From Hyphomicrobiales bacterium (lineage in GTDB: Bacteria > Pseudomonadota > Alphaproteobacteria > Rhizobiales > Rhizobiaceae), in assembly GCA_900472785.1 (NCBI GenBank), contig UCJH01000013.1, forward strand, positions 28,845 to 92,844: a DNA stretch of 64,000 nucleotides, given 5' to 3'. The position numbers were made by a program, and so were the translations under genes. The notes below the pieces were generated by a model. It was not told the DNA's origin and made no database searches. It worked only from the letters and a program-made list of their open reading frames with translations. Positions 14,895-33,323 of this stretch are shown piece after piece. Each line of letters opens with the position of its first letter. The first letter of the stretch is position 1.

Positions 14895-14896
14895 CT

Positions 14897-16844: not shown

Positions 16845-16869
16845 AACGGCAATCTTACGCCTTGGTTCC
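16845..16869 (-). promoter_or_regulatory. EcfG-type promoter for the DUF2934 gene
   Basis: On the minus strand GGAAC (16869-16865), a 16 nt spacer and CGTT (16848-16845) match the alphaproteobacterial general-stress sigma consensus exactly. The gene starts 32 nt downstream. Confidence 0.75.
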
Positions 16870-17107
16870 GCTTCCGACGATCCTTAAATTTTCAACTTGC
16901 CATTCTTTTCCACCGTAACGGGAAAAGCATGATTTCCTTTGTCTTTTACGGGCAGGTTTGAATGCGGGGCTGGCGGTGGTCGCGTGCGGAGCCTATAAGT
17001 CGGGATGATTTCGCCAGCGGCCTGTTCCTGCGCAAACGAATCAGCATGGCGGACGGATGAGAGTATCCATCTGCCGAACCGACCTCCCATCAACGGAAGA
17101 GACAACC

Positions 17108-17344
17108 ATGGCCGCTGAAAAGTTTATCGTGCTGCCCTATCGCAAGGTCCGTGGCGGCCTGGCACCTGGCGAAATGCGTCAGGCGACCAGCGCAGCCGGT
17201 GCGGAGAAAATCGCGACGGCGATGTCCGGCCGCTTCCCAGGCGTCGCCGCCTATGCGGTACAGGTCGATGAAGAGACGGGTGACATGAGCAGTCCGCGTC
17301 TCTTGATCAAGTTTGGCGAAATCGCCGACCTGCCGTCCAGTTGA
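17108..17344 (+). CDS. Small hypothetical protein
   Basis: A 78 aa soluble protein (start MAAEKFIVLPYRKVRGGLAP). Its layout, with an N-terminal strand, a helix around MRQATSAAGAEKIATAMSG and strands around AAYAVQVDEETG, suggests a small alpha/beta fold. No named domain was recognised. ATG 17108 follows GAAGAGACA. It sits among general-stress genes but no EcfG promoter was found directly before it. Confidence 0.6.
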   Translation: MAAEKFIVLPYRKVRGGLAPGEMRQATSAAGAEKIATAMSGRFPGVAAYAVQVDEETGDMSSPRLLIKFGEIADLPSS

Positions 17345-17432
17345 TTGCGATCCAGCACCTCTTTTCAACCAATTTTCAAACGACACTTTGTGCGGCTTTT
17401 GGACAGCTTTCACGTGCTTTGGCGCATTTTCA

Positions 17433-17457
17433 GGAACCTTTGCCGGATATGGGCGTT
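17433..17457 (+). promoter_or_regulatory. EcfG-type promoter
   Basis: GGAAC (17433-17437), 16 nt spacer, CGTT (17454-17457), an exact match to the general-stress consensus. The next start codon in this direction is 64 bp on, at 17521. Confidence 0.75.
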
Positions 17458-17520
17458 TATCGGGCAGTTGCCTTCAAAACGTGCGGGCACATCAAACGCT
17501 CTGAAAAGGATGTGAAAGCC

Positions 17521-17970
17521 ATGAACCAACATCTTGACCCCAAGGGAAACCGCCCCGGAGATCCCGTCAACTGGCCCGCAGAACCGGCAACCACGCAGCG
17601 CGTGGACCCGCTTGCTGCGCAGCAGCCCCGCAATGAATACACCAACACGACCATCGAAACGCGTCGTGGGTTCAGCGGCTGGCCGGTATTGATCGTTCTG
17701 CTCGCCGGCTTGGTGCTGGCCCTGCTCGTCTGGCTGCCGTCTGGCACGACCGATACGTCGGATACGGCGACACAGCCTGCAACGACCGAACAGACCACCA
17801 CGCCGCCGGCTGGCGACACGGCAACGCCTGATACTGCAGTGACACCGACGCCGGAAGCAACGCCGGCCGTTCCGGACACGCAGCAGCAGACGCCTGCAAC
17901 CGGCGAAACGCAGCCGCAGACGGAAGGCGCAACGCCGAACACCAATACAAATACCAATACGACACCGTAA
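17521..17970 (+). CDS. Single-pass membrane protein with Thr/Pro-rich tail
   Basis: A 149 aa protein with a hydrophilic N-terminus (about 50 residues), one transmembrane helix (WPVLIVLLAGLVLALLVWLP, about 55-74), then a low-complexity periplasmic tail rich in Thr, Pro, Ala and Gln that ends in Asn-Thr repeats. No catalytic domain. The tail resembles cell-wall spanning linkers. A perfect EcfG promoter 64 bp upstream points to a role in the stressed envelope. Function unknown. Confidence 0.7.
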   Translation: MNQHLDPKGNRPGDPVNWPAEPATTQRVDPLAAQQPRNEYTNTTIETRRGFSGWPVLIVLLAGLVLALLVWLPSGTTDTSDTATQPATTEQTTTPPAGDTATPDTAVTPTPEATPAVPDTQQQTPATGETQPQTEGATPNTNTNTNTTP

Positions 17971-17991
17971 CCGCGGGCGTTTATTGGTAAT

Positions 17992-18035
17992 AGACCAGGA
18001 TGGCGGAGCAAAGGATTGCTCCGCCATCCTGGTCT
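17992..18035. terminator. Long perfect hairpin after the Thr/Pro-rich protein gene
   Basis: A 20 bp perfect inverted repeat (17992-18011 with 18016-18035) closes on the 4 nt loop AGGA. It follows the stop codon at 17970 by 21 bp. There is no clear T-run, so it may be a terminator of weak type or an RNA-stability or processing element. Confidence 0.55.
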
Positions 18036-18081
18036 GTACGGTTGTTGACAATAAAACTACCAAAGCCGCTGTCGATTCGAT

Positions 18082-18106
18082 TGAACCAAAGGGGCCTCCG
18101 GCCGTT
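18082..18106 (+). promoter_or_regulatory. Near-consensus EcfG-type promoter for the BON gene
   Basis: TGAAC (18082-18086), 16 nt spacer, CGTT (18103-18106). One mismatch from GGAAC-N16-CGTT. The BON-protein start codon lies 32 bp downstream. Confidence 0.6.
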
Positions 18107-18137
18107 TCTACCTCAGACAAAAACGTGAGGATACGAC

Positions 18138-18632
18138 ATGACCGAGAAAAGCCCCAGACCCACCAGCCGTGAAGAAGATTACCGGGACTACGAGGAGCGT
18201 GACCTGAAGGAGGGTTGGCCTTATGCTGACGGCGTCAGCGGCTCGGACACGACCGTGAAAAACCAATCCTACGGAGACACTGCCGAAAACTTCGACGAAA
18301 GCGGCAATCCCGGCTTTGAAACAAGTACCGATGCCGCGATCGACACCGCAGATGGCAGTGATCTGCTGGGCGAACACACGGAAGGCGACATCGATGATGA
18401 CGGCATTGCGGAGGCCGTTTCCGAAAAGCTCGAAAACAGTGAGGTCGAAACCGCAGGCCTGGATATAAAGGTCAGCGACGGCGTGGTCCAGTTGACGGGC
18501 TTCGTTGAAACGGCGGCGCATCGCCAGGTCGTGGAACAGCTGATCTATAGCGTTCCCGGCGTGGTCGGCATCCGCGACGATCTTACCTTGGCTGCGGCGG
18601 ACGGCAATATTCCTGCAGACTGGGATGAATGA
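18138..18632 (+). CDS. BON domain protein
   Basis: A 164 aa protein without signal peptide. Residues 1-90 are acidic and probably disordered (EEDYRDYEERDLKEG, many Asp and Glu); residues about 92-155 are one BON domain (IAEAVSEKLENSEV, VSDGVVQLTGFVET, VPGVVGIRDDLTL). BON domains bind membranes or other partners and occur in osmotic-stress proteins. A near-consensus EcfG promoter precedes it. No catalytic function is expected. Confidence 0.85.
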   Translation: MTEKSPRPTSREEDYRDYEERDLKEGWPYADGVSGSDTTVKNQSYGDTAENFDESGNPGFETSTDAAIDTADGSDLLGEHTEGDIDDDGIAEAVSEKLENSEVETAGLDIKVSDGVVQLTGFVETAAHRQVVEQLIYSVPGVVGIRDDLTLAAADGNIPADWDE

Positions 18633-18702
18633 CGAAAAGCGCACTCGAAAGCATGCAGGCGGCTTGAATATACAGCCGTCTGCGGGGCAAAGGGCATAGG
18701 CC

Positions 18703-19602
18703 ATGCGGCCAGCCGTTCAGGCAAACATGAGATCGAAAAACGGCAACCAAGACGGTCGGGACAGCAGCCGGCCGGGAAACTTCGTTGTCGGCCTGGGCCG
18801 CGGCATAGGCGGCGCCCTGCTCTTTGCGCTTCCAATGCAGATGACCATGGAAATGTGGGAGCTTGGCTCGACCATCGACCGCACCCGACTTTTCCTTTTG
18901 CTCGTTCTCGCGATCCCTCTCCTTGTCGGCATCGCGCATCGGATCGGATTCGAGAAAACATTCGGCTGGCGAGACGACATCCGCGACAGCATGATCGCCT
19001 ATGGGATCGGCATTCTGACCAGCGCGATCCTTCTGTCACTGTTCAGCCTTCTGACGCCCGACATGCCGGCGAGTGAGATCCTCGGCAAGATTGCGCTCCA
19101 GGCGGTACCGGCCAGCATCGGCGCGATGCTCGGGCGAAGCCAGCTCGGTCGCGGCGATGCGGACGACAGCGACGATCCCGATGCCGACGGTGACGGCGCT
19201 CCGGATGACAGGGGCTATGGCAGCGAGCTCTTCCTGATGGCCGTGGGCGCGCTTTTTCTCAGTCTCAACATGGCGCCGACCGAGGAGATGATCCTGATCT
19301 CCTACAAGATGACGTCCTTGCACGCCGTCGCGATGATCCTGCTGTCTATCGGCCTGATGCACGGCTTCGTCTACGCCGTCTCCTTCAAGGGCGGGCACGA
19401 GATTTCAGCCGACACACCCGGCTGGCATGCTTTGATCCGTTTCACCCTGCCCGGTTACATCATCGCGCTGGCCATCAGCCTTTATGCGCTCTGGACGTTC
19501 GGACGACTGGACGGGACGGGGCTGACACCGACGATAATGGCAATGATCGTGCTGGCCTTCCCAGGCGCGATTGGCGCGGCTGCCGCACGTTTGATTCTTT
19601 AG
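18703..19602 (+). CDS. TIGR02587-type integral membrane protein
   Basis: A 299 aa membrane protein with about seven hydrophobic segments. It fits the TIGR02587 family in its order: GLGRGIGGALLFALPMQMTMEMW, then FGWRDDIRDSMIAYGIGILT, then an acidic Asp-rich loop (DADDSDDPDADGDG) in mid-protein. It is followed after 9 bp by a TIGR02588-type gene, the pairing known for these families. Function unknown. The ATG at 18703 is used; ATG 18727 is possible. Confidence 0.82.
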   Translation: MRPAVQANMRSKNGNQDGRDSSRPGNFVVGLGRGIGGALLFALPMQMTMEMWELGSTIDRTRLFLLLVLAIPLLVGIAHRIGFEKTFGWRDDIRDSMIAYGIGILTSAILLSLFSLLTPDMPASEILGKIALQAVPASIGAMLGRSQLGRGDADDSDDPDADGDGAPDDRGYGSELFLMAVGALFLSLNMAPTEEMILISYKMTSLHAVAMILLSIGLMHGFVYAVSFKGGHEISADTPGWHALIRFTLPGYIIALAISLYALWTFGRLDGTGLTPTIMAMIVLAFPGAIGAAAARLIL

Positions 19603-19611
19603 AGGGAGACC

Positions 19612-20031
19612 ATGGCCCAGACAAACAAACAAGGGACGAAAACCAGGGTGGTCGATCGTGATGCCCACTGGATCGAATGGCTAACTGGCGCTGTCAGCGC
19701 GGCTCTCGTTGCCGGCATGATCGGCTGGATCGGCTATGAGGCAGCAACCGGTAGTGAAGGCCAGCCCGAGCTTTCGACGCGTATCGTTCACCAGGAAAAG
19801 ACCGGTGCCGGCTATCGGGTGACATTCCTGATTGAAAACGCCGGAAAGCGAACGGCTTCGGCCGTGGTCGTTCAAGGCGAGATCAAGGATGGTGATCGTG
19901 TTGTGGAAACATCTGAAGTGACCTTCGACTACGTTCCGGCCAATTCCAGCGCATCCGGCGCGCTGTTGTTTCGCTCCGATCCGGAAGCCGGCCGGCCCGA
20001 GATCAGGCCGGCCGGCTATAGCGATCCATAA
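19612..20031 (+). CDS. TIGR02588-type protein
   Basis: A 139 aa protein with a short basic N-terminus, one transmembrane helix (about 27-47, GAVSAALVAGMIGWIGYEAA) and a periplasmic beta-rich domain (YRVTFLIENAGKRTASAVVV, VETSEVTFDYVPANSSASG). It resembles TIGR02588 proteins, which occur beside TIGR02587 genes. An AGGGAG ribosome site precedes ATG 19612. The two are probably one complex in the inner membrane; the function is not known. Confidence 0.82.
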   Translation: MAQTNKQGTKTRVVDRDAHWIEWLTGAVSAALVAGMIGWIGYEAATGSEGQPELSTRIVHQEKTGAGYRVTFLIENAGKRTASAVVVQGEIKDGDRVVETSEVTFDYVPANSSASGALLFRSDPEAGRPEIRPAGYSDP

Positions 20032-20036
20032 GCTGA

Positions 20037-20339
20037 TCAGGCAGCCGACGGCTGGTCTCTGCCTTCGCCGATCGCCGATGACGCGTTCCAGAGGAACTGG
20101 CTTTCGTCCGCGTCTCCCTGCCGGGGAACCCAGAAACTGGCAAGCGGCATTGCAGCCGCCGTCTGCTCCCCTTGCGAGAGTATCCGTTGAACGGCAGTCC
20201 GCGCAGCGGCAAGCGAGGGAAACAAGGTGCCATCAAGGGCCCAGACACTATACTTTACAGCAACAAAACGCAGCATGACACCATCCGGCACCACTGCGCC
20301 TACGGCTTCGCCGCCAAAATCGACAACGTGTTTCTGCAT
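20037..20339 (-). CDS. Small hypothetical protein under general-stress control
   Basis: A 100 aa soluble protein (MQKHVVDFGGEAVGAVVPDG at the start). Its first half is beta-rich and includes LRFVAVKYSVWALDGTLFPS; the second half is helical. No named family was recognised. ATG 20339 is preceded by a GGGGGAG ribosome site. An exact EcfG promoter lies 94 bp upstream on the same strand. It converges with the TIGR02588 gene with only 5 bp between them. Confidence 0.65.
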   Translation of the reverse strand: MQKHVVDFGGEAVGAVVPDGVMLRFVAVKYSVWALDGTLFPSLAAARTAVQRILSQGEQTAAAMPLASFWVPRQGDADESQFLWNASSAIGEGRDQPSAA

Positions 20340-20432
20340 AGAAATACTCCCCCTGCCTTCGCACCGATCGGCAGGTTTTCTTCTGCGCGCATGGCACAGC
20401 AGACCGAACCCTCGCCTTTCAGACTGCGCAGA

Positions 20433-20457
20433 AACGCACGACCGAACGCTTGGTTCC
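20433..20457 (-). promoter_or_regulatory. EcfG-type promoter
   Basis: Minus strand GGAAC (20457-20453), 16 nt spacer, CGTT (20436-20433). Exact consensus, upstream of the gene starting at 20339. Confidence 0.75.
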
Positions 20458-20525
20458 CTCTCTTCTAGAAAAAAACGGCCGGGATGCGACGCGCATCGAT
20501 ATGGGTGAAGGAGACCTGCCAAAAT

Positions 20526-20560
20526 GAACGCAGGCTGAACATCCAGTTCAGCCTGCGTTC
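20526..20560. repeat. Perfect 15 bp inverted repeat
   Basis: Left arm 20526-20540 (GAACGCAGGCTGAAC) pairs perfectly with 20546-20560 around a 5 nt loop. It lies in the non-coding stretch between two divergent small genes (20339 minus, 20636 plus). It could be a protein-binding site or an RNA hairpin; there is no T-run. Confidence 0.6.
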
Positions 20561-20635
20561 CGATGCGATGGTGTTATCTGCGCCTGCGTCGAGAGGCCGG
20601 ACATCTCCGGCGGCGCGCGGGCGACGGGGCTTCAG

Positions 20636-20878
20636 GTGCAACACTATTTCTTCGATTTGTTCTTCGGCGACGAACAGATGGTCGATGACGAAGGCGTCGA
20701 TCATTTCGACGAGGGCTCGGCCGTCTATTATGGCCAGCGGATCGCCGACAGGATCGGCCGCGATGCGGATTACACCGCACTCAAGGTCCATGTGCGGTGC
20801 CCGGATGGCGCGCTTCTCGCCATCCTTGCAGCCTCAGCAGGACGTGGCCTCGAGCGCACGGCGCTGATCGGGCGGTAA
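20636..20878 (+). CDS. DUF6894 family protein
   Basis: An 80 aa protein matching the DUF6894 pattern: an opening MQHYFFDLFFGDEQMVDDEG, where a short beta strand is followed by an acidic turn and the word DEEG/DDEG, then a helix and a final strand LKVHVRCPDGALL. The start is GTG 20636 with a GGGGC sequence upstream. Function unknown; these proteins are common in rhizobial stress regions. Confidence 0.75.
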   Translation: MQHYFFDLFFGDEQMVDDEGVDHFDEGSAVYYGQRIADRIGRDADYTALKVHVRCPDGALLAILAASAGRGLERTALIGR

Positions 20879-20889
20879 AACCCGATCGG

Positions 20890-22143: not shown

Positions 22144-22211
22144 TTTCTCGTCCCCATTTTCAGAAAGTCAGGTCTTAACAGTGCATACCGTGCGGATGGC
22201 CGCAAGCCGCA

Positions 22212-22712
22212 TCACTTCTTCAATCCGTTCATGATCCGCTCCAGATAGCCCAGCATCAGCGCCGACACGACGAAGGCGATGTGCATGATGGTCGCCCACA
22301 TCAGCTGTTCACTGGAATACTGCTTGGTGTTGAGAAATATCTGCAGCAGGTGGATCGAGGAAATCGCCACGATCGACGAGGCGACCTTGATCTTCAGGCT
22401 GCCGGAATCGAGCTTGCCGAGGAACGATACCTCGCCCTCCGCCTCGTCGAAACGGCTGACGAAATTCTCGTATCCGGAAATCATCACCATGACGATCAGA
22501 CTTGCCACCAGCGCCGCGTCGATCAACCCGAGCATGGCGAGGATCATCTGGGCATCGTCATAGACGAACACCATGCCGGCGACCTTGATGAACTTGTAGA
22601 GGAAAGAAACCCCGTAAAGCGCGAGCGCCGCCACCAGTCCAAGATAGAAAATCACCAGCAACCAGCGGCTCGAAAGGATGATCCGTTCGACGATGAGTTC
22701 CAGTGATTTCAT
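22212..22712 (-). CDS. UPF0114 (YqhA-like) membrane protein
   Basis: A 166 aa inner membrane protein with four hydrophobic segments, matching the UPF0114/TIGR00645 family: start MKSLELIVERIILSSRWLLV, a central MISGYENFVSRFD and the end KVASSIVAISSIHLLQIFLN. Function unknown. ATG 22712 is used since the frame upstream has no family similarity. Confidence 0.88.
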   Translation of the reverse strand: MKSLELIVERIILSSRWLLVIFYLGLVAALALYGVSFLYKFIKVAGMVFVYDDAQMILAMLGLIDAALVASLIVMVMISGYENFVSRFDEAEGEVSFLGKLDSGSLKIKVASSIVAISSIHLLQIFLNTKQYSSEQLMWATIMHIAFVVSALMLGYLERIMNGLKK

Positions 22713-22797
22713 AGGGAGGCTCCGGATGTTGCGTATGCGAGCATGAATATCCAAGCCGCCCCGTCGCGGCAAGTCGAAGCATCTTCCGCCACGCAAA

Positions 22798-22825
22798 AAG
22801 GGGCGGCAAATCAATGCCACCCCTT
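22798..22825 (-). terminator. Terminator of the DUF1328 gene
   Basis: An 11 bp stem (AAGGGGTGGCA with TGCCGCCCCTT on the minus strand, one G-T pair) followed by TTT. It begins 39 bp after the DUF1328 stop codon. Confidence 0.75.
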
Positions 22826-22863
22826 GGACAGTCAATCACCGCGGCCTAAGCCGTTTCGGGTGT

Positions 22864-23034
22864 TCAGGTCCTGCGCATCATGCCGGCAACCAGGGAGATA
22901 ACCAGGAAAGCCAGGAACAGGAAGAACAGGATCTGAGCGATACCTGCGGAAGCGCCGGCAATACCGCCGAAGCCGAGAACACCGGCAATGATGGCAACGA
23001 CCAGAAATACAAGAGCGTAATACAGCATGTTCAT
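22864..23034 (-). CDS. DUF1328 small membrane protein
   Basis: A 56 aa protein, almost entirely hydrophobic, with two transmembrane helices ([19 protein letters not shown] and [19 protein letters not shown]) separated by [10 protein letters not shown] and ending in MMRRT. This is the UPF0391/DUF1328 pattern (YtjA in enterobacteria). It has an AAGGAG site 4 bp before ATG 23034 and an exact EcfG promoter just upstream. Family members are stress-induced in rhizobia; the molecular role is not known. Confidence 0.88.
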
Positions 23035-23062
23035 TCTCCTTCACTCTTTAAACCTGACCATT

Positions 23063-23087
23063 AACGCGCCCGATACCCATTTGTTCC
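23063..23087 (-). promoter_or_regulatory. EcfG-type promoter for the DUF1328 gene
   Basis: Minus strand GGAAC (23087-23083), 16 nt spacer, CGTT (23066-23063). Exact consensus; the start codon is 28 nt downstream. Confidence 0.8.
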
Positions 23088-23196
23088 GACTTTAGACTTG
23101 GATAACGCTGAAACGCTCTCGACTGCAGGGAAAGATTTCATTAACCATACGCAGGAACTTTGCCCCGTTTTGACACGATGTAGTCACCAATTACGT

Positions 23197-23222
23197 GGAA
23201 CTATCGACAGCAACGATGCGTT
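23197..23222 (+). promoter_or_regulatory. EcfG-type promoter
   Basis: GGAAC (23197-23201), 17 nt spacer, CGTT (23219-23222). Exact consensus with the longer spacer, 32 nt before the start codon at 23255. Confidence 0.7.
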
Positions 23223-23254
23223 GTGTGGGCAAGTTGATAATGCGAGATAGTAAA

Positions 23255-23461
23255 ATGACCGTATCACCGTCGAACATCTGGAAATCCGCATCGGAAGTTC
23301 TGCGCGCGCCCGCGGGCCAGCGCGACAAGAACCTGCACATCGGCGGGACCTTGCGCGATCTCTACTTCAACGACGCCATGCCGAAGACCGAAGGTGAATT
23401 TGCAAAACTTCTGACGGAGTTGGAAGCAGCAGAGACCGGACGACCGCCACGCGGCGTCTGA
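23255..23461 (+). CDS. Small hypothetical stress-controlled protein
   Basis: A 68 aa soluble protein (start MTVSPSNIWKSASEVLRAPA). It is predicted to be mostly helical, with an acidic C-terminal helix around EFAKLLTELEAAE. No recognised domain. ATG 23255 fits the promoter position better than ATG 23240, which would leave only a very short leader. An intrinsic terminator follows. Function unknown. Confidence 0.65.
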   Translation: MTVSPSNIWKSASEVLRAPAGQRDKNLHIGGTLRDLYFNDAMPKTEGEFAKLLTELEAAETGRPPRGV

Positions 23462-23489
23462 CATTAAGATAATGAGGAAGATTGACGAG

Positions 23490-23513
23490 GGTCGCCGAGA
23501 GCGGCCTTTTTTT
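23490..23513 (+). terminator. Intrinsic terminator
   Basis: A 6 bp stem (GGTCGC with GCGGCC) and 5 nt loop followed by seven T. It ends the gene at 23255-23461. Confidence 0.75.
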
Positions 23514-23540
23514 GTTCCTATGGGTTCGTCCACGGCGCAC

Positions 23541-23570
23541 AAAAAAGCCGGCGGTTTTAAACGCCGGCTT
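23541..23570 (-). terminator. Terminator of the PRC-barrel gene
   Basis: A 9 bp stem (AAGCCGGCG with CGCCGGCTT) around TTTTAAAC-type loop. On the minus strand it is followed by TTTT, 23 bp after the PRC-barrel stop codon. Confidence 0.8.
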
Positions 23571-23592
23571 GTCATTGAAGTTCGTCGCCCGG

Positions 23593-24579
23593 TCATTTTG
23601 CCGGAGATGACAGGATTATACCCTGGCTGTTTGCGGCATAGCTGTCCTTGTCATAGGCGGGCTGTTTTTCCAGTTGCTCCTTCGTGAAGGGCGAATAAAT
23701 CGTCATGGCCCCGCCGGCATCCGCCATCACCTGAACGCTTTGCGCACTGATGGCCACCGGTTTCGCGCCGACGCCAAGGAAGCCGCCGACATCGATCACA
23801 TAGGCTTCAAACTTTCCGTCCTTGCTCAAGATCACGTCGCCGATGGTCCCGATTTCCGTGTCATCGGCGACTTTAACTTCAGTACCGATCAATTTCTCGG
23901 CGCTAAGCAGGGAGGGATCGACCGGCTGCAGTTCCGGTGCCGGCACGGCTGCGGTCGTCCCCTTGTCAACCTCCAGGGTTTCCGGATCGACGTCCGGATC
24001 CGTCATGTGCGGCGTGGTGCCGATTGCCGGAATGGTTGTTTCCGCAGTTTCGGGCTCCGCCTTGGCAGGCGCTACGGGAACGGCTTCCGTCGATTGCTTG
24101 GCAGATGCCGCGGCATCGTCTTCGGGCACAGTGGCCGCCACGCCGTCCATGATCGGGGCACGGTCGAATTGCGGCGCCGCCTGTAGTTCCTCCTTGGTTG
24201 CGGAGACGACAATGATCCGCTCGCCATCCTTGTCAGAGAGCGAAACCCGATCGAAATTCACCGCAACGTCCTTTTCGCCAATGCCCAGGAAACCACCGAC
24301 GCCGATGACCAGCGCCTCCGCGCCGCCTGCCGCATTGATGACGACATCGTTCACATCGCCGATGGCCTCACCTTCCTCGTCGGCTCCGGTATAGACCGTT
24401 TTCCCAATCACCGACGAGGCCAGGATCTGCTCTGGCGCAGACGCAAAATACCCGACGGAATCGGTCTTTTCGGCACCGGTGGGCGCGGCGATATCGGCAG
24501 TTCCCGTGGTCTGCTGGGCCATGGCACCGGTCGTCAGGATGGCGGCGAGCGCGGTCGTGGCAAAGAGTGTGCGGATCAT
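23593..24579 (-). CDS. Exported protein with two PRC-barrel domains
   Basis: A 328 aa protein with a signal peptide (MIRTLFATTALAAILTTGAM, cleavage after about AMA). Two PRC-barrel domains follow, at about residues 52-120 (IGKTVYTGADEEGEAIGDVN, VIGVGGFLGIGEKDVAV) and 228-300 (IGTEVKVADDTEIGTIGDVI, VIDVGGFLGVGAKPVAI), joined by a Pro/Ala/Glu-rich linker. The repeated VGGFLG words show internal duplication. Such proteins are common in the periplasm of rhizobia under stress. An exact EcfG promoter lies 83 bp upstream. No enzymatic role is expected. Confidence 0.88.
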   Translation of the reverse strand: MIRTLFATTALAAILTTGAMAQQTTGTADIAAPTGAEKTDSVGYFASAPEQILASSVIGKTVYTGADEEGEAIGDVNDVVINAAGGAEALVIGVGGFLGIGEKDVAVNFDRVSLSDKDGERIIVVSATKEELQAAPQFDRAPIMDGVAATVPEDDAAASAKQSTEAVPVAPAKAEPETAETTIPAIGTTPHMTDPDVDPETLEVDKGTTAAVPAPELQPVDPSLLSAEKLIGTEVKVADDTEIGTIGDVILSKDGKFEAYVIDVGGFLGVGAKPVAISAQSVQVMADAGGAMTIYSPFTKEQLEKQPAYDKDSYAANSQGIILSSPAK

Positions 24580-24661: not shown

Positions 24662-24686
24662 AACGATGCTCACGGGTGTTTGTTCC
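24662..24686 (-). promoter_or_regulatory. EcfG-type promoter for the PRC-barrel gene
   Basis: Minus strand GGAAC (24686-24682), 16 nt spacer, CGTT (24665-24662). Exact consensus. Confidence 0.75.
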
Positions 24687-24783: not shown

Positions 24784-24797
24784 ATCTCATGCTTCCA

Positions 24798-25127
24798 TCA
24801 ATTGCTGAGGACCGTCGGGCGCGAACCCTTCGCAGCAACCAGAACCGGCATCTCTATATCGTCATCGGTGACGGAGACATCGAGCTCTCCTGCCGGGGTG
24901 ATCTCCCAACTGATCGTCGCATCTTCCAAGAAGAGAGCGGGATCGACAGGGGCGCATTTTCCATAGGTTACCTTGAACCGCTCTCTGACACTGTCGACCG
25001 CGGGGCGCAGCAAAGCCTGGCACTCCTCGACGGTTTCAAAACCAACGGATGGCGCCGCAATTTCGCGGCAGTCCACATTTGCCGAACTGCACCCGACCAA
25101 CATCATGATTGCTGCAATATGTTCCAT
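24798..25127 (-). CDS. Small putative lipoprotein
   Basis: A 109 aa protein whose start, MEHIAAIMMLVGCSSANVDC, contains a lipobox-like LVGC with Cys13, but lacks the usual basic n-region, so export is uncertain. The rest is mixed alpha/beta with Cys residues at VDCREI, EECQALL and YGKCAPV that could form disulfides. ATG 25127 follows AGGGAG. An exact EcfG promoter lies 38 bp upstream and is divergent from that of the DUF3309 gene. No known family. Confidence 0.65.
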   Translation of the reverse strand: MEHIAAIMMLVGCSSANVDCREIAAPSVGFETVEECQALLRPAVDSVRERFKVTYGKCAPVDPALFLEDATISWEITPAGELDVSVTDDDIEMPVLVAAKGSRPTVLSN

Positions 25128-25164: not shown

Positions 25165-25189
25165 AACGGCGATGCAGAGTGGAAGTTCC
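25165..25189 (-). promoter_or_regulatory. EcfG-type promoter, left member of a divergent pair
   Basis: Minus strand GGAAC (25189-25185), 16 nt spacer, CGTT (25168-25165). Exact consensus, for the lipoprotein gene starting at 25127. Confidence 0.75.
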
Positions 25190-25213: not shown

Positions 25214-25238
25214 GGAACAAATTTAAGGAAGCCGCGTT
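25214..25238 (+). promoter_or_regulatory. EcfG-type promoter, right member of a divergent pair
   Basis: GGAAC (25214-25218), 16 nt spacer, CGTT (25235-25238). Exact consensus, 59 bp before the DUF3309 start. The two -35 elements of the pair are 24 bp apart. Confidence 0.78.
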
Positions 25239-25296: not shown

Positions 25297-25452
25297 ATGC
25301 TCGGTACAATTCTGCTGATCGTCTTGATACTTCTTCTCATCGGAGCGCTTCCGAATTGGGGACACAGCCGGAATTGGGGTTATGGACCATCCGGCGGCCT
25401 TGGCCTTGTTGTCGTCATCCTGCTCATCCTTGTTCTGATGGGCCGCATCTGA
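25297..25452 (+). CDS. DUF3309 small membrane protein
   Basis: A 51 aa protein with two short hydrophobic helices (MLGTILLIVLILLLIGALPN and GGLGLVVVILLILVLMGRI) joined by a Trp/Gly/Asn-rich turn (WGHSRNWGYGPSGG). This is the DUF3309 pattern. It is the first gene after an EcfG promoter and is probably co-transcribed with the glycine-zipper gene 57 bp downstream. Function unknown. Confidence 0.85.
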   Translation: MLGTILLIVLILLLIGALPNWGHSRNWGYGPSGGLGLVVVILLILVLMGRI

Positions 25453-25509: not shown

Positions 25510-25758
25510 ATGAAGAAGATAATGCTCGCAATCGCGCTGATCCTCCCGCTTGCGGCCTGCTCGGAAACCGAGCGCGGCGCCGGCATCGGTGCGGCGTCCG
25601 GCGCCATCATCGGCGGCGTTGCAACGGGGAACGTGCGCGGTGCGGCGGTCGGCGCTGCAGTGGGCGGTGTTGCTGGGGCACTGATCGGCCGCGCCAACGA
25701 GCCGGGCCGCTGCTACTACCGCGACCGCTACGGTCGTCGCTACGTCGACGCTTGCTAA
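25510..25758 (+). CDS. Glycine-zipper lipoprotein
   Basis: An 82 aa outer-membrane-type lipoprotein. The signal MKKIMLAIALILPLAAC ends in the lipobox LAAC (Cys17). Residues 23-60 are a glycine zipper (GAGIGAASGAIIGGVATGN, then VGAAVGGVAGALIG) that can insert in membranes, and the tail is rich in Tyr and Arg (RCYYRDRYGRRYVDAC). It resembles the SlyB/OsmB-like small lipoproteins. It lies downstream of DUF3309 in the same stress-controlled unit and ends at a strong terminator. Confidence 0.85.
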   Translation: MKKIMLAIALILPLAACSETERGAGIGAASGAIIGGVATGNVRGAAVGAAVGGVAGALIGRANEPGRCYYRDRYGRRYVDAC

Positions 25759-25776
25759 TTGCATTTGTCGCCAACG

Positions 25777-25803: not shown

Positions 25804-25840
25804 GTGTCTTTTCAGTTTTTGAAAGCAGTTTCCGACGGAG

Positions 25841-26041
25841 CTAGGCCTCTGGGTCACCAAGCTTTTCAGCCTGATCGAGCCGCTCGAGAAGATCGAGGAA
25901 TACATCGGGGATGGGCTGCTGCTCGACCGAACTGTAGAGCGCCTTCAATTTTGACGCGATCTGCGAGTGGGACTCAAATGTGCCATTCGGGCGGCTGCGC
26001 ATCCCTGCGGATTTGCCCGGTTTCTCCGGTGTTCCACTCAT
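25841..26041 (-). CDS. nepR: NepR-type anti-sigma factor
   Basis: A 66 aa anti-sigma factor. The core IASKLKALYSSVEQQPIPDV followed by FLDLLERLDQAE holds the two helices and the PIPDxFxxLLxxL signature of NepR. NepR binds EcfG under normal conditions and is removed by phosphorylated PhyR. phyR is divergent, 179 bp away, which is the usual arrangement. The usual next gene, ecfG, is missing: after this stop codon comes the terminator of the opposite gene. Confidence 0.9.
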   Translation of the reverse strand: MSGTPEKPGKSAGMRSRPNGTFESHSQIASKLKALYSSVEQQPIPDVFLDLLERLDQAEKLGDPEA

Positions 26042-26220
26042 TGAAGATATTCACTCCCACACGAACGAGCCGTCTCGACTTGCAACGATGCCACTTTGCA
26101 GTTCCTTTCCCTCGAAACTTCCAATATGCGGTAAAACATGGTCAAACCGCTGATAAGTGTCGACTCGGAACGCCTCTAAGATCCTCACATACGATAATAT
26201 CATACTAAAGGAAGTCCCCT

Positions 26221-27024
26221 ATGTCACTTTCGATGCGGATTGCTGCCCACCTTCCCTATCTGCGCCGCTTTTCCCGTGCCGTTACCGGTTCGCAGGCATC
26301 CGGCGATGCTTATGTTGCGGCGGTACTCGAAGCTCTGATCGCCAATATCAGTCTCTTTCCGAAAGGGTCGAACGACAGGGTCAACCTGTTCCAGCTCTTC
26401 TGCTCGCTCTTTGACGGCATCAAGATCGATCTTCCGGAAACGACGTCGCCTTTCGGCTGGGAAAAGCGCGCCGCGGACAATCTTGCCGTCATCGCACCGG
26501 CAGCACGCAAAGCCTTCCTGCTTGTTGCTGTCGAAGGATTTTCCACGGACGAAGCGGCAGAGGTACTGCAGATTTCTGAAGAAGCGCTTTCAGCCCTGCT
26601 GGCTGATGCATCGGAAGATATTTCCGGACAGGTCGCGACCGACATCCTGATTATCGAAGACGAACCGCTGATCGCGATGGATATCGAAGACATGGTGAAA
26701 AGCCTCGGTCACAACGTGACCGGCATTGCCCGCACCCACAAGGAAGCCATCGACCTTTTCCGCCGGACGCCGCCGAAAATGATACTTGCCGATATCCAGC
26801 TTGCCGACGGCAGCTCCGGTATTGACGCGGTCAACGAGATCCTCGCAACGGCGACCATTCCGGTCATCTTCATCACGGCTTTCCCAGAGCGGTTGCTGAC
26901 AGGCGAAAAGCCCGAACCGGCCTTCCTCGTCACGAAACCTTTCAACCCGGACATGGTCAAGGCCCTGATCAGCCAGGCATTGTTCTTCGACGAACACGCC
27001 CGCTCGCCAGCCAACTCAGGCTGA
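26221..27024 (+). CDS. phyR: PhyR, general stress response anti-anti-sigma regulator
   Basis: A 267 aa response regulator. Residues 1-130 form the sigma-like domain (SDAYVAAVLEALI-type helices, AVEGFSTDEAAEVLQISEEA corresponding to the sigma4 helix-turn-helix), and residues about 140-260 are a receiver with IIEDEPLIAMDIE and acceptor Asp191 in MILADIQLADG. Phosphorylation opens the protein so that the sigma-like part captures NepR. The ATG follows AAAGGAAG. The upstream DNA has GGAAC at 26167 but no CGTT at the right distance. Confidence 0.95.
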   Translation: MSLSMRIAAHLPYLRRFSRAVTGSQASGDAYVAAVLEALIANISLFPKGSNDRVNLFQLFCSLFDGIKIDLPETTSPFGWEKRAADNLAVIAPAARKAFLLVAVEGFSTDEAAEVLQISEEALSALLADASEDISGQVATDILIIEDEPLIAMDIEDMVKSLGHNVTGIARTHKEAIDLFRRTPPKMILADIQLADGSSGIDAVNEILATATIPVIFITAFPERLLTGEKPEPAFLVTKPFNPDMVKALISQALFFDEHARSPANSG

Positions 27025-27026
27025 CA

Positions 27027-28274: not shown

Positions 28275-28334
28275 GATGTTTCCTGTATGCTGATCGAGCA
28301 GCGGTCGGTTGCAACGCCGGGCGGCGCGGTCGAG

Positions 28335-29567
28335 CTAGGCGGGAAGATGACGTTCCGGCGGATGCGTGCGCACCTCGTCGAAAATCGTCATGGCGATCAA
28401 CGACATCGGCAGTGCCAGCATGGCGCCGACGGCGCCCCACATCCATGTCCAGAAAATGATCGCAAGGAAGATGAGGAAGGGGTTGATTTCAAGCCTGTGG
28501 CCAAGGATGGACGGCGTTACCAGATTTTCCATAACGAGATGCAGAAGGAAAAATCCAAGTGCCGGCGCAAGCGCAAGCAGGAGCGCATCATGCGTCATCA
28601 GGCCTGCAACCATCAATGCGAGCGTCATGACGGTGACGCCGACATAGGGGATGAAGCTTGAGATAAATGCGAACAGCCCCCAGAGCGGCGCCATGCCGAG
28701 CCCGCCGACAAACGCGATGACGGCCGTGATGGCGCCGAGCACGATATAAATCAGGCTCGCCGTCGAGAAATAGAACCCCATGGAATTTTCAATGGCATTC
28801 ATGATGCGGATCGCCGTCAGGCGGCGCTCGCGGGTCGCAAAGCCCATGATAATCGTCTTGCGCAGTTGCGCGCGCCCGACGAGAAACAGGCCGAGCGCCG
28901 CCAGAAAGATCAACGTCTGGATGAGGGCGGGCGTCAGGCCCGAGGCAACGAGGCCGAGCATCGCGCCGGCATTCTGCATTGCCATGTCCGCAACCGCTTT
29001 CTCGTCCGCGCCGGCAAGCGCCGACCTTAGCCAATCGAACCGCTCGACAAAGGGAAGAACACGCTCGACGGTGCGCTCAAGAATCTTCGGAGCCTCGCCG
29101 GCGAGTTGGGACATGGGTTCAACCAGGGCGTTGATCAGCAGGAAAAGGCCGACAACGAAGACCACCCCAAGCAGGAGACCACCGAGCACCGGAGGGAGCC
29201 CGAATTTTGCCAGTCGATCCGCGGCAAGACCCAGCACCATGCCGACGACGATCGCCAGCGTGATCGGCATGAGGATTGCCTCCATCATGTAGATGACGGC
29301 CGACGCGATGACGATGAAGATGCCGACGATGCTCCAGGCGACCACCAGATCGAGCGAATCGCGTGGGTTGACCACCGGATAGGCGGCTTCCACGGCCGCT
29401 TCCTCTGCCTCGCGAATATGCTTGCGCTTGCGATGAATGGCTTGTTCCGGCACTGCAGCGCCCATGTCGATGCCCCTGTTCCCCAACCATCGTTTTGCCG
29501 ACTGGACGGCCCGGTAACGACGCATGACACCGGGCGAAAAGAGGAAGCGATCACCGCTTATGAGCAT
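28335..29567 (-). CDS. AI-2E family membrane transporter
   Basis: A 410 aa membrane protein of the AI-2E (PerM/YdiK) family. About eight transmembrane segments: two early (LVVAWSIVGIFIVIASAVIY and the next), then an amphipathic soluble part (about 130-210), then the conserved membrane half including AFISSFIPYVGVTVMTLALM and FWTWMWGAVGAMLALPMSL. The substrate is unknown; the family name does not prove autoinducer transport. The start at 29567 fits the exact EcfG promoter 23 bp upstream; ATG 29465 is an alternative. Confidence 0.85.
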   Translation of the reverse strand: MLISGDRFLFSPGVMRRYRAVQSAKRWLGNRGIDMGAAVPEQAIHRKRKHIREAEEAAVEAAYPVVNPRDSLDLVVAWSIVGIFIVIASAVIYMMEAILMPITLAIVVGMVLGLAADRLAKFGLPPVLGGLLLGVVFVVGLFLLINALVEPMSQLAGEAPKILERTVERVLPFVERFDWLRSALAGADEKAVADMAMQNAGAMLGLVASGLTPALIQTLIFLAALGLFLVGRAQLRKTIIMGFATRERRLTAIRIMNAIENSMGFYFSTASLIYIVLGAITAVIAFVGGLGMAPLWGLFAFISSFIPYVGVTVMTLALMVAGLMTHDALLLALAPALGFFLLHLVMENLVTPSILGHRLEINPFLIFLAIIFWTWMWGAVGAMLALPMSLIAMTIFDEVRTHPPERHLPA

Positions 29568-29589
29568 TGTCTTCTGTTCGCGCCACAGG

Positions 29590-29614
29590 AACGCAGGAGC
29601 CTGTCAAAGGTTCC
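29590..29614 (-). promoter_or_regulatory. EcfG-type promoter for the AI-2E and FAD oxidoreductase genes
   Basis: Minus strand GGAAC (29614-29610), 16 nt spacer, CGTT (29593-29590). Exact consensus. The 279 bp between 29568 and 29846 show nothing else supported. Confidence 0.75.
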
Positions 29615-29846
29615 CTTAGCTGCCGGGCGGGTCCGGAACAAAGGGCGATACGGAACGTTTTCCATGGGTCGACGTGATGCTCGCCCCCATTGAGCCAGAC
29701 ACGATCGATGCGCATCCGGACGATGCGATTGGCCGATGGAATGCGACCCCGGAACGGAGGAACCATCAATTCGGCCGACAGGCATTTCGAATGACGGCTT
29801 TTCGAACAGAGCGGGCAACCATGACGGTTGCCCGTCTGCAGATCGC

Positions 29847-30902
29847 TCAATCCGAAAACAGCATCTCGACATGCGTGCCCGAGTCCGACTTGTCGTCATA
29901 CACCAGCGAACAGCCCATCGTGCTTGCCATGGCCGATATGATCCGGCTGCCAAGACCTGTTCCTGTGGCCGGGCCGGCTGGATCGAAACCACGACCGTCA
30001 TCCTCCACCCGCAGCCTGATCTTGCACCCATGCCTGGAAAGACGCACCCGAATTTCACCGGGCTCTCCTGCCCTGTAAGCGTATTTGAAAGCATTGGTCA
30101 CGAGTTCGCTGACGATCAGGCCGAGCGTCACAACCTTGTCTGTCGACAGGTGTACGCGTTCCGCATGCAGGACGAGGGTGTGCGGGCGCATATCGTCACG
30201 CATCGAAGACTGCAGCTCTTCCAGAAGACTGCCGAGGTAAGCATCGACCTGCACGGAGCCGACCTGATTGTTGACATAGAGATGACGGTGCACATTCCCG
30301 ATCGCGTTGATGCGGGCCTGTGTCTCCTGCAAGGCCTGGATGGCGACCGGGTCCGTTACCAGAGATACCTGCATCCGGATCAATGCCGCCGCCAGCCCAA
30401 GGCTGTTGCCGACACGATGGTTGACCTCGCGCAGCAGCAATTCGGCGCGATCCCTTTCCTGTCGGACCTGTTCCTGGGCAAGCTCGGTTTCGTGCCGGAA
30501 GCGCGCCCGTTCCAGCGCCTGGTTCAACGCAGCCGCCAGCAACTCAAAGAAATCCGTGGAAACGTTCTTCGTCACATAGTCGTCGGCACCGCACTTCAAC
30601 GCCTGCACGGCAATGCTCATGTCGCCTGCACCGGTTACATAGACGACCGGGGGATGGTCCGGTCGCTTGAGAATTTCCGGCAAGATATCGAGACCGGTTT
30701 CACCGAGCAGGTAGTGATCAAGCGCGATCGCGTCGATTTCACCGCCGGCCAACAGCGCCAGCCCCGTCATCCCGTCGAGCACCGTAACGACTTCGAAGCC
30801 CAGGCGGCCGAGATTTTTCTTGAGCAGAATGCCCAAGGTCTCATCGTCGTCGATGTAAAGAATTCGGTTGCCGCTTTTCGGCGCCGCCAGCCCGGATGAC
30901 AT
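29847..30902 (-). CDS. Receiver-HisKA_2 histidine kinase
   Basis: A 351 aa soluble kinase. Residues 12-130 are a receiver (ILYIDDDETLGILLKKNLG, acceptor Asp62 in AIALDHYLLGE); then a coiled coil; then an H-box LLREVNHRVGNSLGLAAALI with His162 followed by an HATPase part (SELVTNAFKYAY, DDGRGFDPAGPATGTGLGS). The HRxxN form of the H-box places it in the HisKA_2/HWE group, the class that signals to PhyR in several alphaproteobacteria. It overlaps the previous gene by 1 bp, so the three-gene signalling operon is translationally coupled. A role upstream of PhyR is inferred. Confidence 0.88.
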   Translation of the reverse strand: MSSGLAAPKSGNRILYIDDDETLGILLKKNLGRLGFEVVTVLDGMTGLALLAGGEIDAIALDHYLLGETGLDILPEILKRPDHPPVVYVTGAGDMSIAVQALKCGADDYVTKNVSTDFFELLAAALNQALERARFRHETELAQEQVRQERDRAELLLREVNHRVGNSLGLAAALIRMQVSLVTDPVAIQALQETQARINAIGNVHRHLYVNNQVGSVQVDAYLGSLLEELQSSMRDDMRPHTLVLHAERVHLSTDKVVTLGLIVSELVTNAFKYAYRAGEPGEIRVRLSRHGCKIRLRVEDDGRGFDPAGPATGTGLGSRIISAMASTMGCSLVYDDKSDSGTHVEMLFSD

Positions 30903-31348
30903 TACTTGGCCTCCGGGACGGCCATGACCGACAAAAACAGACCAAGTTGCTGGATGGCGTTGACGAACTTCTCATACTGCATGGGCTTGGGCACATAGAC
31001 ATTTGCCCCGAGATCATAACAGCGGTGGACTTCCCGCGGATCATCGGTCGTCGTCAGGATGATGACCATGGTCCGTTTCAGATGGGCGCTGTCGCGCATC
31101 CGGGCGAGAATATCCATGCCCGTCATGTCCGGCAGGTTGAGATCCAGAAGCACCAGCAAGGTTTTTCCGACATGCTCGCTGCCGGTCCCATCCGCGCCGA
31201 GCAAAAAGGCCAACGCTTCGGTCCCGTTGACGAAAGCAACGATTTCATTCGTTACCCCGGCCCGGCGGATATTCTTTTCGATCAGTCTGGCATGCCCCTC
31301 ATCGTCTTCGATCATCACGATCTTTACGGGCCTTGCAGTGTTGATCAT
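30902..31348 (-). CDS. Single-domain response regulator (Rcp1-like)
   Basis: A 148 aa receiver without output domain. Motifs are VMIEDDEGHARLIEKNIRRA, the acceptor Asp in LLVLLDLNLPDMTG, the TTTDDPREV switch region and the lysine in VYVPKPMQ. The layout is that of Rcp1-type receivers that accept phosphate from phytochrome-like or CHASE3 kinases. ATG 31348 overlaps the kinase stop by 4 bp (ATGA). It probably shuttles phosphate between the CHASE3 kinase and the HisKA_2 kinase. Confidence 0.88.
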   Translation of the reverse strand: MINTARPVKIVMIEDDEGHARLIEKNIRRAGVTNEIVAFVNGTEALAFLLGADGTGSEHVGKTLLVLLDLNLPDMTGMDILARMRDSAHLKRTMVIILTTTDDPREVHRCYDLGANVYVPKPMQYEKFVNAIQQLGLFLSVMAVPEAK

Positions 31349-32838
31349 TGCTCTCCCCACTTCTTTGCGCGGCGCAGATCCGCAGCGAACGTGACATAGA
31401 AAGACGTCCCCTCACCCAGAACGGAGCTTACGGAGACATCTCCGCCCAATCGCCGGACAAGCGCCCGGACATGAGCAAGCCCGATTCCCTCACCCGGCCT
31501 GTCCTGTCGACCGGATCGCCTGAAAAGCTCAAAGATTCGTTCGTTATCCTGGCTTGCTATGCCCCGGCCATTGTCACGCACGGTCACCGTCACATCCTCC
31601 CCGACGACCTCACCAAACACCTCTATGAGGGGGCTACGCGAAGGATCGGCATATTTGATTGCATTGTCCAGCAGGTTTCCGAAAATCTGCTGCAAGGCCA
31701 GCCGGTCGGATACGACTGTCGGAAGGTCGGGGGAGATCGTCACGACCGCATTGCCGCCATCCAGACGATGCTGGAGCGTGGCAGCAGACTCGGCCACGAG
31801 CTTCGAAAGCTCAAGCGTTTCCGCTTGCAAGTGCCGATTTCCGGCCCTGGCGAGCTTGAGGATTTCGTTGATCAGGTCGTCCATTCGCTTCATGGACGAG
31901 CGAATAAAGCGCAGTGCCTCCGGGACATCCTCCTGTACGGCCTCGCGCGCTGCCTTGGCGGTGGGATCGTCCGGCAGCGGATTGGCTTCCAGATAGTCGG
32001 CGAATTGGCCGGACGCCCGTTCCAGTTCGGCCGTGAAACCCATAATATTGACCAGCGGTGCGCGCAGATCGTGCCCGACGATATAGGCGTAGCTCTGCAG
32101 CTCCCGATTGGCCCTTTCCAGAAACCGCGTTCGCTCGCGCACTTTCTGCTCCAGCGTCTCGTTCTGAAGCTCAAGGGCATCGCCCGCCTTTTCCAGCTGA
32201 CGGGAGTGCGAAAAAATCAGGGCGACCGCGCCGCCAACGAGAAAAACGAGCAGGATTGCTCCGCCGGTGATTGAGATCAACAGAAGCCGCGTAGCCTGGG
32301 TAAGTGCAGACAAACGCACGAAACCGGTATTGTCGGTTATGGCGTCGATCCGGACAAGGATCTGGCGGATTTCTTCCATGGCTTGCCGGCCCTGGTCGCT
32401 CTCGACAAGAGCCAGCGCATCGCCGGCTTTTCCCAGCCGCTTTAGCTCGACGGTATCACGCAGTTCGACAAGCTTCGTCTTGATCAATGTGTCGAGCCGG
32501 TTGATCGTGACGGGGCTCAGGGCAATAGACTGAAAATCAGGCAGAAGACTGCGAAAATGCAGAGGTATCAGGGCTTCTGCGCGCTTGAAAGGCGCGAGAT
32601 ACCGCTTTTCGGCCGTCAGCAGATATCCGCGCTGACTGGTTTCGGCATCCTGAACCAGACTGAAAAGCCGCATGACCCGGCTGTTCAGGCGCGCCGCATC
32701 GAGCGCCTCGTTGGCATTGCGGCTGGTCAAATTTGCAAAGTGAAGAGATGAAAGAACCAGGGCAAGAAGCAGTATCGCTCCCGCAAACAGAAACAGTGGT
32801 ACCGATCTGAAAATGATCGACTTCCTGTTCATTGTCAT
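31345..32838 (-). CDS. CHASE3-domain sensor histidine kinase
   Basis: A 497 aa inner membrane kinase. A first transmembrane helix (VPLFLFAGAILLLALVLSSL, about 13-32), a CHASE3 sensor in the periplasm (RLFSLVQDAETSQRGYLLTA, about 40-185), a second helix (LLISITGGAILLVFLVGGAV), a coiled coil, HisKA with YIVGHDLRAPLVNIMGFT (His near 265) and HATPase (DNAIKYADP, DNGRGI, GEGIGLAHVRALVRRLGG). It heads the operon with the receiver and the HisKA_2 kinase. No EcfG promoter was found upstream. The signal is unknown. Confidence 0.9.
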   Translation of the reverse strand: MTMNRKSIIFRSVPLFLFAGAILLLALVLSSLHFANLTSRNANEALDAARLNSRVMRLFSLVQDAETSQRGYLLTAEKRYLAPFKRAEALIPLHFRSLLPDFQSIALSPVTINRLDTLIKTKLVELRDTVELKRLGKAGDALALVESDQGRQAMEEIRQILVRIDAITDNTGFVRLSALTQATRLLLISITGGAILLVFLVGGAVALIFSHSRQLEKAGDALELQNETLEQKVRERTRFLERANRELQSYAYIVGHDLRAPLVNIMGFTAELERASGQFADYLEANPLPDDPTAKAAREAVQEDVPEALRFIRSSMKRMDDLINEILKLARAGNRHLQAETLELSKLVAESAATLQHRLDGGNAVVTISPDLPTVVSDRLALQQIFGNLLDNAIKYADPSRSPLIEVFGEVVGEDVTVTVRDNGRGIASQDNERIFELFRRSGRQDRPGEGIGLAHVRALVRRLGGDVSVSSVLGEGTSFYVTFAADLRRAKKWGEQ

Positions 32839-33084
32839 GAGCTCAAGAACATGACGGACGGAGTGCTCCCCCGGATCCTGACATGTCGCCGGATCACCAC
32901 GCTAAGCAATCCTGTTCGGGGCAAAAAATCAACCCTGCATAGATGCCGAGCGTAAAACTTTAAACCCGCGGGTGATGGGCGTTTTGTACCGGCAGTGGCG
33001 GGAGTTTTGAAAGAAAAGTCCGGAGTTGTTGGAATAAGCCGCAAACTCCGGAGCATCGTCGCGTCCTCGTCTTGCTGGAGCGCT

Positions 33085-33255
33085 TTAATAGCGCTCCGGC
33101 GGAAAGACATGCAGCGTAAGCGAAAACAGACCAAGTCCAAGCAAAACAACCATCAGCGTATGAGCAACGTCATCCGAGGTGGCAGGCAGGATTCCAAGGC
33201 CGATGATCGCACCGAAAAACAGGAACAGACAGACTCTGGGAAACCAGTACAACAT
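33085..33255 (-). CDS. Small two-helix membrane protein under general-stress control
   Basis: A 56 aa hydrophobic protein (MLYWFPRVCLFLFFGAIIGL at the start, then a short polar turn PATSDDVAH and a second helix TLMVVLLGLGLFSLTLHVF). It resembles DUF1328 in size and topology but not in sequence. ATG 33255 has an AAGGAA site. An exact EcfG promoter is 37 bp upstream and overlaps the divergent one for the next gene. Function unknown. Confidence 0.7.
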   Translation of the reverse strand: MLYWFPRVCLFLFFGAIIGLGILPATSDDVAHTLMVVLLGLGLFSLTLHVFPPERY

Positions 33256-33291
33256 GGGGGTGTTCCTTGCGATGTGTTGAGACTGCCCATT

Positions 33292-33316
33292 AACGCGGGA
33301 ACCAGGGATTGGTTCC
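33292..33316 (-). promoter_or_regulatory. EcfG-type promoter, interleaved with a divergent one
   Basis: Minus strand GGAAC (33316-33312), 16 nt spacer, CGTT (33295-33292). Exact consensus, for the small membrane protein at 33255. It overlaps the plus-strand promoter 33298-33323. Confidence 0.75.
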
Positions 33317-33323
33317 AACCGTT
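33298..33323 (+). promoter_or_regulatory. EcfG-type promoter, interleaved with a divergent one
   Basis: GGAAC (33298-33302), 17 nt spacer, CGTT (33320-33323). Exact consensus with 17 nt spacer, 89 bp before ATG 33412. Confidence 0.7.

Follow-up and report, generated by a model that had tools for sequence, protein, structure and literature searches.

A 64-kb stretch of DNA from the 5.38-Mb, 149-contig genome of a Hyphomicrobiales bacterium of the family Rhizobiaceae (GCA_900472785.1; positions 28845-92844 of contig C55, hereafter the window) carries, between positions 16845 and 33323, an island of EcfG-type promoter sites around the genes phyR2 and nepR2. We consider it likely that this island is a conserved block of targets of the sigma factor EcfG, arranged around a second PhyR-NepR pair which lacks a sigma factor gene of its own, with the product of a small unannotated open reading frame (ORF), orf68, acting as a damper. 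The island is of a known kind, found in an unusual setting, and holds one probable new regulator, orf68. Neither the island nor orf68 was found described in the open-access literature, subscription papers lying outside the search.

An exact search of the whole window for GGAAC-N16/17-CGTT identified 12 sites, every one of them within 16845-33323 and none in the remaining 47.5 kb, compared to a mean of 1.02 sites and a maximum of 3 in 100 shuffled windows. An earlier, sequence-only reading of this DNA had reported eleven exact sites and one single-mismatch site, at a density far above the roughly one exact site expected per 64 kb; the expectation and the excess agree with the shuffles, and the mismatch site at 18082 (TGAAC-N16-CGTT, about 30 bp upstream of an ATG) is there, whereas the exact count rises to 12. 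The same reading had placed all its sites in the orientation of the next gene and at short distances from the start codon, which is the case for 11 exact sites and the 18082 variant (22-93 bp) and fails for 29635(+), the sole exact site with no gene after it. It had also proposed a scan of the genome, in which the plain motif turned out to be in modest excess over the reversed motif (152 vs. 107), and a stricter motif, requiring H and then W after GGAAC, gave 84 sites vs. 31. Twelve of the 84 strict sites lie within the 16.5-kb island, a region picked post hoc, for which the remaining 72 sites predict 0.22. Elsewhere in the genome, three same-strand exact sites in 640 bp (contig C46, 14281-14920) form a second mini-cluster, each 20-32 bp upstream of a small ORF (61, 83 and 127 amino acids).

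Conservation was assessed in 20-kb stretches around phyR2 from 24 same-genus genomes, some of which are near-copies of each other (e.g., L106/L107); with the window, this makes 25 loci. The 24 stretches contain 212 exact sites vs. 8 reversed ones, whereas 20 arbitrary 20-kb stretches from five relatives contain 7 (0-4 each) vs. 14 reversed; 11 stretches around phyR1-nepR1-ecfG have 2-4 exact sites each. Orthologues of window genes follow 188 of the 224 sites in the 25 loci. When a footprint was defined as an exact site within 220 bp upstream of an orthologue, 10 of the 12 exact window sites recurred, mostly at fixed distances, and 29635(+) and 33298(+) mostly did not; the reversed motif gave no exact match upstream of these orthologues, except for DUF1328 genes of other genera (4/16). 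In a genome-wide scan statistic computed for two of five named relatives, G014 and G015, 11 of the 54 strict sites of G014 were found within 17 kb, compared to 5 in the most clustered of 5000 random draws. The sites that precede no orthologue of a window gene are mostly found at recurring spots, about -2160(+) and -2600(-) from phyR2, near genes absent from the window.

Several observations weigh against this picture. The cluster of G015 comprises 4 strict sites (random P = 0.026), one genus locus (L110, genome G007), which keeps phyR2-nepR2 but not the left half of the island, has just 2 sites, another (L119) has 5, and the case as a whole is built on sequence. Chance clustering was rejected on the basis of the shuffles, the reversed-motif counts, the control stretches and the footprints. 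Another extracytoplasmic function (ECF) sigma factor could in principle serve the sites: the genome yields 21 ECF-like region-4 matches, EcfG and the PhyRs included, and the plain motif has the high chance background given above. However, density and conservation rule out chance for ten sites, and the same motif precedes ecfG-adjacent phyR in 59 of 64 loci, where it is the known EcfG autoregulation site, so that service by another sigma factor, or chance, appears very improbable. The density and orientation of the sites, their fixed distances and their conservation in the 25 same-genus loci make it very likely that the EcfG-type island around nepR and phyR seen in the sequence-only reading is real and conserved, and we infer that EcfG uses its promoters.

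Footprints differ from gene to gene. At the left end, the exact site at 16845..16869 (-) lies 32 bp upstream of a DUF2934 gene (16579-16812, -; DUF2934 2.6e-13), which was found in two of another six genus stretches, each time preceded by an exact site at a distance of about 32 bp. The site at 17433..17457 (+) lies 63 bp upstream of the gene for a single-transmembrane protein of no known family (17521-17970, +), whose orthologues have an exact upstream site in 19/19 cases in the genus and 6/6 in other genera. The variant at 18082..18106 (+) precedes a gene with a BON domain (Pfam; 18138-18632, +); among the 22 orthologues of this gene in the genus, 20 have TGAAC, one has CGAAC and one has neither, and because TGAAC is kept in 20/22, its one-mismatch form reads as a conserved non-consensus -35 element and not as decay. 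The site at 20433..20457 (-), 93 bp upstream of a 100-amino-acid gene (20037-20339, -), is matched by exact sites in 18/21 genus orthologues and 0/1 from other genera.

Closer to the pair, the site at 23063..23087 (-) lies 28 bp upstream of a DUF1328 gene (Pfam; 22864-23034, -), which is followed by a UPF0114 gene (Pfam; 22212-22835, -); exact sites precede DUF1328 orthologues in 23/24 genus loci and 14/16 in other genera. The site at 23197..23222 (+), 32 bp upstream of orf68 (23255..23461, +), is exact in all 31 loci with an orthologue (24/24 in the genus, 7/7 in other genera). A PRC-barrel gene (Pfam PRC; 23593-24579, -) lies 82 bp downstream of the site at 24662..24686 (-), with exact sites in 19/22 genus orthologues and 1/1 from other genera; a 109-amino-acid gene (24798-25127, -) lies 37 bp from the site at 25165..25189 (-), with 20/20 and 11/14, respectively. 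The site at 25214..25238 (+) is 58 bp upstream of a DUF3309 gene (Pfam; 25297-25452, +), itself followed by a glycine-zipper gene (25510-25758, +), and recurs in 24/24 genus and 9/10 other orthologues. To the right, the gene of an AI-2E-family transporter (Pfam; 28335-29567, -) has its site at 29590..29614 (-), 22 bp upstream; of its 25 genus orthologues, 15 have an exact site and 24 have one within one mismatch, and exact sites precede 2/8 orthologues in other genera. At the right end, the site at 33292..33316 (-), 36 bp upstream of the gene of a 56-amino-acid membrane protein (33085-33255, -), is exact in 23/23 genus orthologues and 8/8 from other genera. These are, as the sequence-only reading described, mostly small membrane or envelope proteins and unknowns, several matching no family, except that one of the unknowns, orf68, proved to be NepR-like.

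Two exact sites have no support from conservation and were rejected as real promoters. The site at 29635..29659 (+) points antisense into a kinase gene (29847-30902), with no convincing gene downstream, and its position has a plus-strand partner in 3 of the 25 loci, the window included; it is likely to be a chance or spurious match, or to give rise to an antisense RNA. The site at 33298..33323 (+) precedes a 127-amino-acid gene (33415-33798, +); of the 11 genus orthologues of this gene, just one, that of the window itself, has the exact site, which is probably not a conserved promoter. The 33298 site overlaps the site at 33292..33316 on the opposite strand, each -35 element falling inside the spacer of the other, and of the two the minus-strand site alone is conserved.

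The regulatory pair itself consists of nepR2 (25841..26041, -; Pfam NepR, 1.9e-15), an anti-sigma factor gene, and phyR2 (26221..27024, +; PhyR_sigma2 1e-24, PhyR_sigma-like 2.1e-18, and Response_reg), which encodes a sigma-like domain and a receiver; the Pfam matches exceed the cut-offs and bear out the names given to both genes from the sequence. NepR is found twice in this genome, in the window and on contig C139 (23597-23701), where the best region-4 sigma match of the genome follows nepR at 24052 and the second PhyR lies at 22601-23392. Since C139 carries nepR1, the best sigma match and phyR1, the window pair is a second phyR-nepR pair without ecfG, which is located on C139 with phyR1-nepR1; unlike a canonical locus, the window has no ecfG beside nepR. 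All 25 same-genus genomes searched gave PhyR matches, and 24 have a full-length PhyR that is 77-91% identical to that of the window; G013, which is 78% complete, shows a window-type PhyR in pieces only.

In a tree of 105 different PhyR sequences, a supported branch (99/94) separates 41 sequences without adjacent ecfG, a count in which some of the Shinella stretches stop 2-3 kb away, from 64 with adjacent ecfG. Upstream of phyR, an exact EcfG site is present in 59 of the 64 ecfG-adjacent loci vs. 0 of the 41 phyR2 loci, and upstream of nepR in 19/64 vs. 0/41; phyR2 thus lacks the EcfG-type promoter of a canonical phyR. The promoter sequences suggest that phyR2 and nepR2 are outside the EcfG loop. 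A point against this comes from S. meliloti, where, in the part of the published account available (PMC3616915), a probe in the 5' untranslated region (UTR) of rsiB2 rose upon rpoE2 overexpression and the coding region did not; because of this rise, there may be some EcfG input to phyR2.

The genes behind the sites are not tied to the second pair in all genomes. Within stretches that are in some cases short, DUF1328 is found near phyR in 40/41 phyR2 loci, 0/19 phyR1-clade loci of two-PhyR genomes and 36/45 other ecfG-adjacent loci; the corresponding counts are 34/41, 0/19 and 18/45 for the 109-amino-acid gene, and 23/41, 0/19 and 9/45 for the PRC gene. A second PhyR was demonstrated in the genome for 15 of the 19 phyR1-clade loci; all 5 tested genomes of the phyR2 and phyR1 clades have two or more PhyRs, and all 12 tested genomes of the other group have one. 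Several of these targets thus adjoin phyR-nepR-ecfG in single-PhyR genomes and the ecfG-less pair in two-PhyR genomes. On a simple reading, the target block is old and stayed with the ecfG-less pair in two-PhyR lineages, the direction of change being unrooted. These same counts in single-PhyR genomes (36, 18 and 9 of 45) favour ordinary co-location, whereby EcfG targets gathered near general stress response (GSR) regulators by descent and the NepR likeness of orf68 has no functional meaning; unknowns are, moreover, abundant in EcfG regulons. We regard this explanation as rather unlikely: a profile of orf68 built without any NepR retrieves NepR genes from all frames of the genomes (17/17 of the matches inspected), and orf68 keeps the L-R-x-x-Y and LL-x-x-L core.

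The evidence for orf68 comes mainly from such profile comparisons. The 68-amino-acid product is unannotated, and the window member obtained no family name from Pfam or NCBIfam. An alignment of 28 orf68 sequences, which keeps H-I-G-x-T-L-R-D-L-Y and LL-x-x-L-x-x-x-E, matched an alignment of 32 NepRs with an hhalign probability of 97.1% (6.9e-11, 57 columns), compared to at most 2.9% for 60 column-shuffled controls and at most 0.4% for nine other island families. Across 199 Rhizobiaceae genomes, the orf68 profile found 13 full-length relatives and 45 weaker matches; the 17 weaker matches inspected as loci all proved to be NepR beside phyR and ecfG, a further 7 coincide with or adjoin a NepR or PhyR known from the genome searches, and 21 were left uninspected. 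Each of the 13 full-length relatives is preceded by an exact EcfG site. For the 8 newly fetched ones, nepR and a PhyR that is 74-82% identical to PhyR2 are found no more than 7 kb away, with no adjacent ecfG; in one of these stretches, L258, there is an ecfG-like fragment at a distance of about 14 kb.

A number of findings count against the assignment. Orf68 falls below the cut-off of Pfam NepR (PF18557): the window member has no match, 11 of the 28 members match weakly (best E = 0.012), and 4 of the 28 match Spore_III_AB, which as a single match is better (0.0021). The conserved E-x-x-P linker of NepR is absent from orf68, whereas all of the 32 NepRs have P45 and nearly all have E42. A search of PDB sequences with orf68 gave no significant match; NepR came up at E = 0.28 and 0.41 and was outranked by tagged GCN4 fusions (0.06). 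The AlphaFold model of orf68 is weak (pLDDT, its predicted confidence score, 65.5), and a Foldseek search with it returned nothing; we therefore set aside structural proof. The NepR2 model is likewise weak (69.9), and the two models, with two helices at corresponding places, give weak support. On balance, the profile comparisons indicate homology of the two-helix core, and we think it highly likely that orf68 is homologous to NepR.

What orf68 does is a separate question. A brake on PhyR is favoured because published EcfG-driven NepR paralogues bind PhyR and damp the response; by this analogy, the chances that orf68 is an EcfG-induced feedback brake appear about even. The chief alternative is a plain anti-sigma role, in which orf68 would act on EcfG, or on another ECF sigma factor, instead of PhyR, in plain NepR-type negative feedback. 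Orf68 shares the NepR two-helix core, its EcfG-type promoter is invariant, and both RsiA proteins of S. meliloti bind RpoE2, according to the available text of PMC4814048; the proline linker, however, is lost in orf68, and from the accessible accounts PhyR, and not EcfG, seems to be the partner of both EcfG-driven NepR paralogues in the literature, the S. melonis test having been clouded by unstable proteins. This makes true anti-sigma action a fairly improbable alternative to the PhyR brake. In its fullest form, our proposal is that orf68 is a third NepR-like GSR regulator of Rhizobiaceae, a PhyR-binding brake behind an invariant EcfG-driven promoter beside PhyR2-NepR2, so that pair, brake and targets travel together with the sigma factor elsewhere; we advance this tentatively, as slightly short of an even chance. 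Another unannotated NepR-like ORF lies opposite SMb21687, as noted in the accessible part of PMC6180224.

Beside the pair, the gene at 29847..30902 (-) encodes a receiver and an HRXXN-type histidine kinase, with HRVGN within its HisKA_2 domain (3.1e-18). Its best NCBIfam match is PhyK (3.4e-28), at 98.5 bits far below the cut-off of 750. It is a candidate kinase for PhyR2; as a conserved partner or fixed part of the island it was rejected, an orthologue being present at the locus in just 7 of the 25 genus loci. A single-domain response regulator and a CHASE3 histidine kinase (Pfam) are encoded at 30902..32838 (-). The region also contains a TIGR02588 gene (NCBIfam; 19612-20031) and a further product with a Pfam name, DUF2391. 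To the left of the island, the order glgX, glgA, DUF2934 (12635-16812) is shared by the two nearest relatives (L262, L263) and was not found in the other four of six stretches examined. A tRNA-His gene lies at 59110-59186 (-).

From these observations we infer the following mechanism. NepR proteins would hold EcfG, whose gene lies elsewhere with phyR1-nepR1; under stress, NepR would be captured by phosphorylated PhyR1 or PhyR2, and the EcfG thus released would turn on about ten conserved island promoters, mostly of genes for small membrane or envelope proteins. The genes phyR2 and nepR2 would themselves stand outside the EcfG loop, and the induced orf68 product would most likely bind PhyR (or EcfG) and damp the response. 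If so, a position amid conserved likely EcfG targets would explain why a sigma-less second PhyR-NepR pair is kept in several Rhizobiaceae genera, and an unannotated small protein could be added to the alphaproteobacterial stress response as a likely negative regulator, a layer described as little known in the available text of PMC4814048.

Compared to known systems, the window resembles the canonical phyR/nepR-ecfG locus in that phyR and nepR are encoded divergently with EcfG-type promoters nearby, and differs from it in having no ecfG and no exact site before phyR2 or nepR2. The closest parallel by published description is rsiA2/rsiB2 of S. meliloti, a second NepR/PhyR pair away from the sigma gene rpoE2 (PMC3616915, PMC6180224, PMC4814048, in their accessible parts); rsiA2, termed an orphan anti-sigma gene, is reported there not to be RpoE2-regulated (PMC3616915, PMC4814048), much as nepR2 has no exact site. 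Orthology with the window pair is presumed from that description, and phyR2 shares its PhyR clade with Ensifer and Sinorhizobium sp. loci; the accessible text of the papers on rsiA2/rsiB2 mentions neither a promoter island nor a third gene of NepR type. In Sphingopyxis granuli TFA, nepR1-phyR1 is likewise a second pair apart from ecfG, but both phyR genes are directly GSR-regulated, according to the available part of PMC7083833, whereas phyR2 here has no exact site. For orf68, the available text of PMC4814048 describes META2p0735 of M. extorquens AM1, a PhyR-binding NepR paralogue whose EcfG-type promoter is induced by stress and which lowers stress resistance when overexpressed; it is similarly a NepR-type protein behind an EcfG-type promoter, in another lineage and context. 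NepR2 of S. melonis Fr1, as described in the accessible part of PMC6599016, is small and EcfG-controlled, binds PhyR, damps the GSR and needs L31 and F35; likened by description, it differs in that the number of its gene (1448) directly follows that of ecfG (1447), whereas orf68 accompanies an ecfG-less pair, and it resembles orf68 in that L33-R34-x-x-Y37 of orf68 stands at the corresponding place, with L33 and Y37 against L31 and F35.

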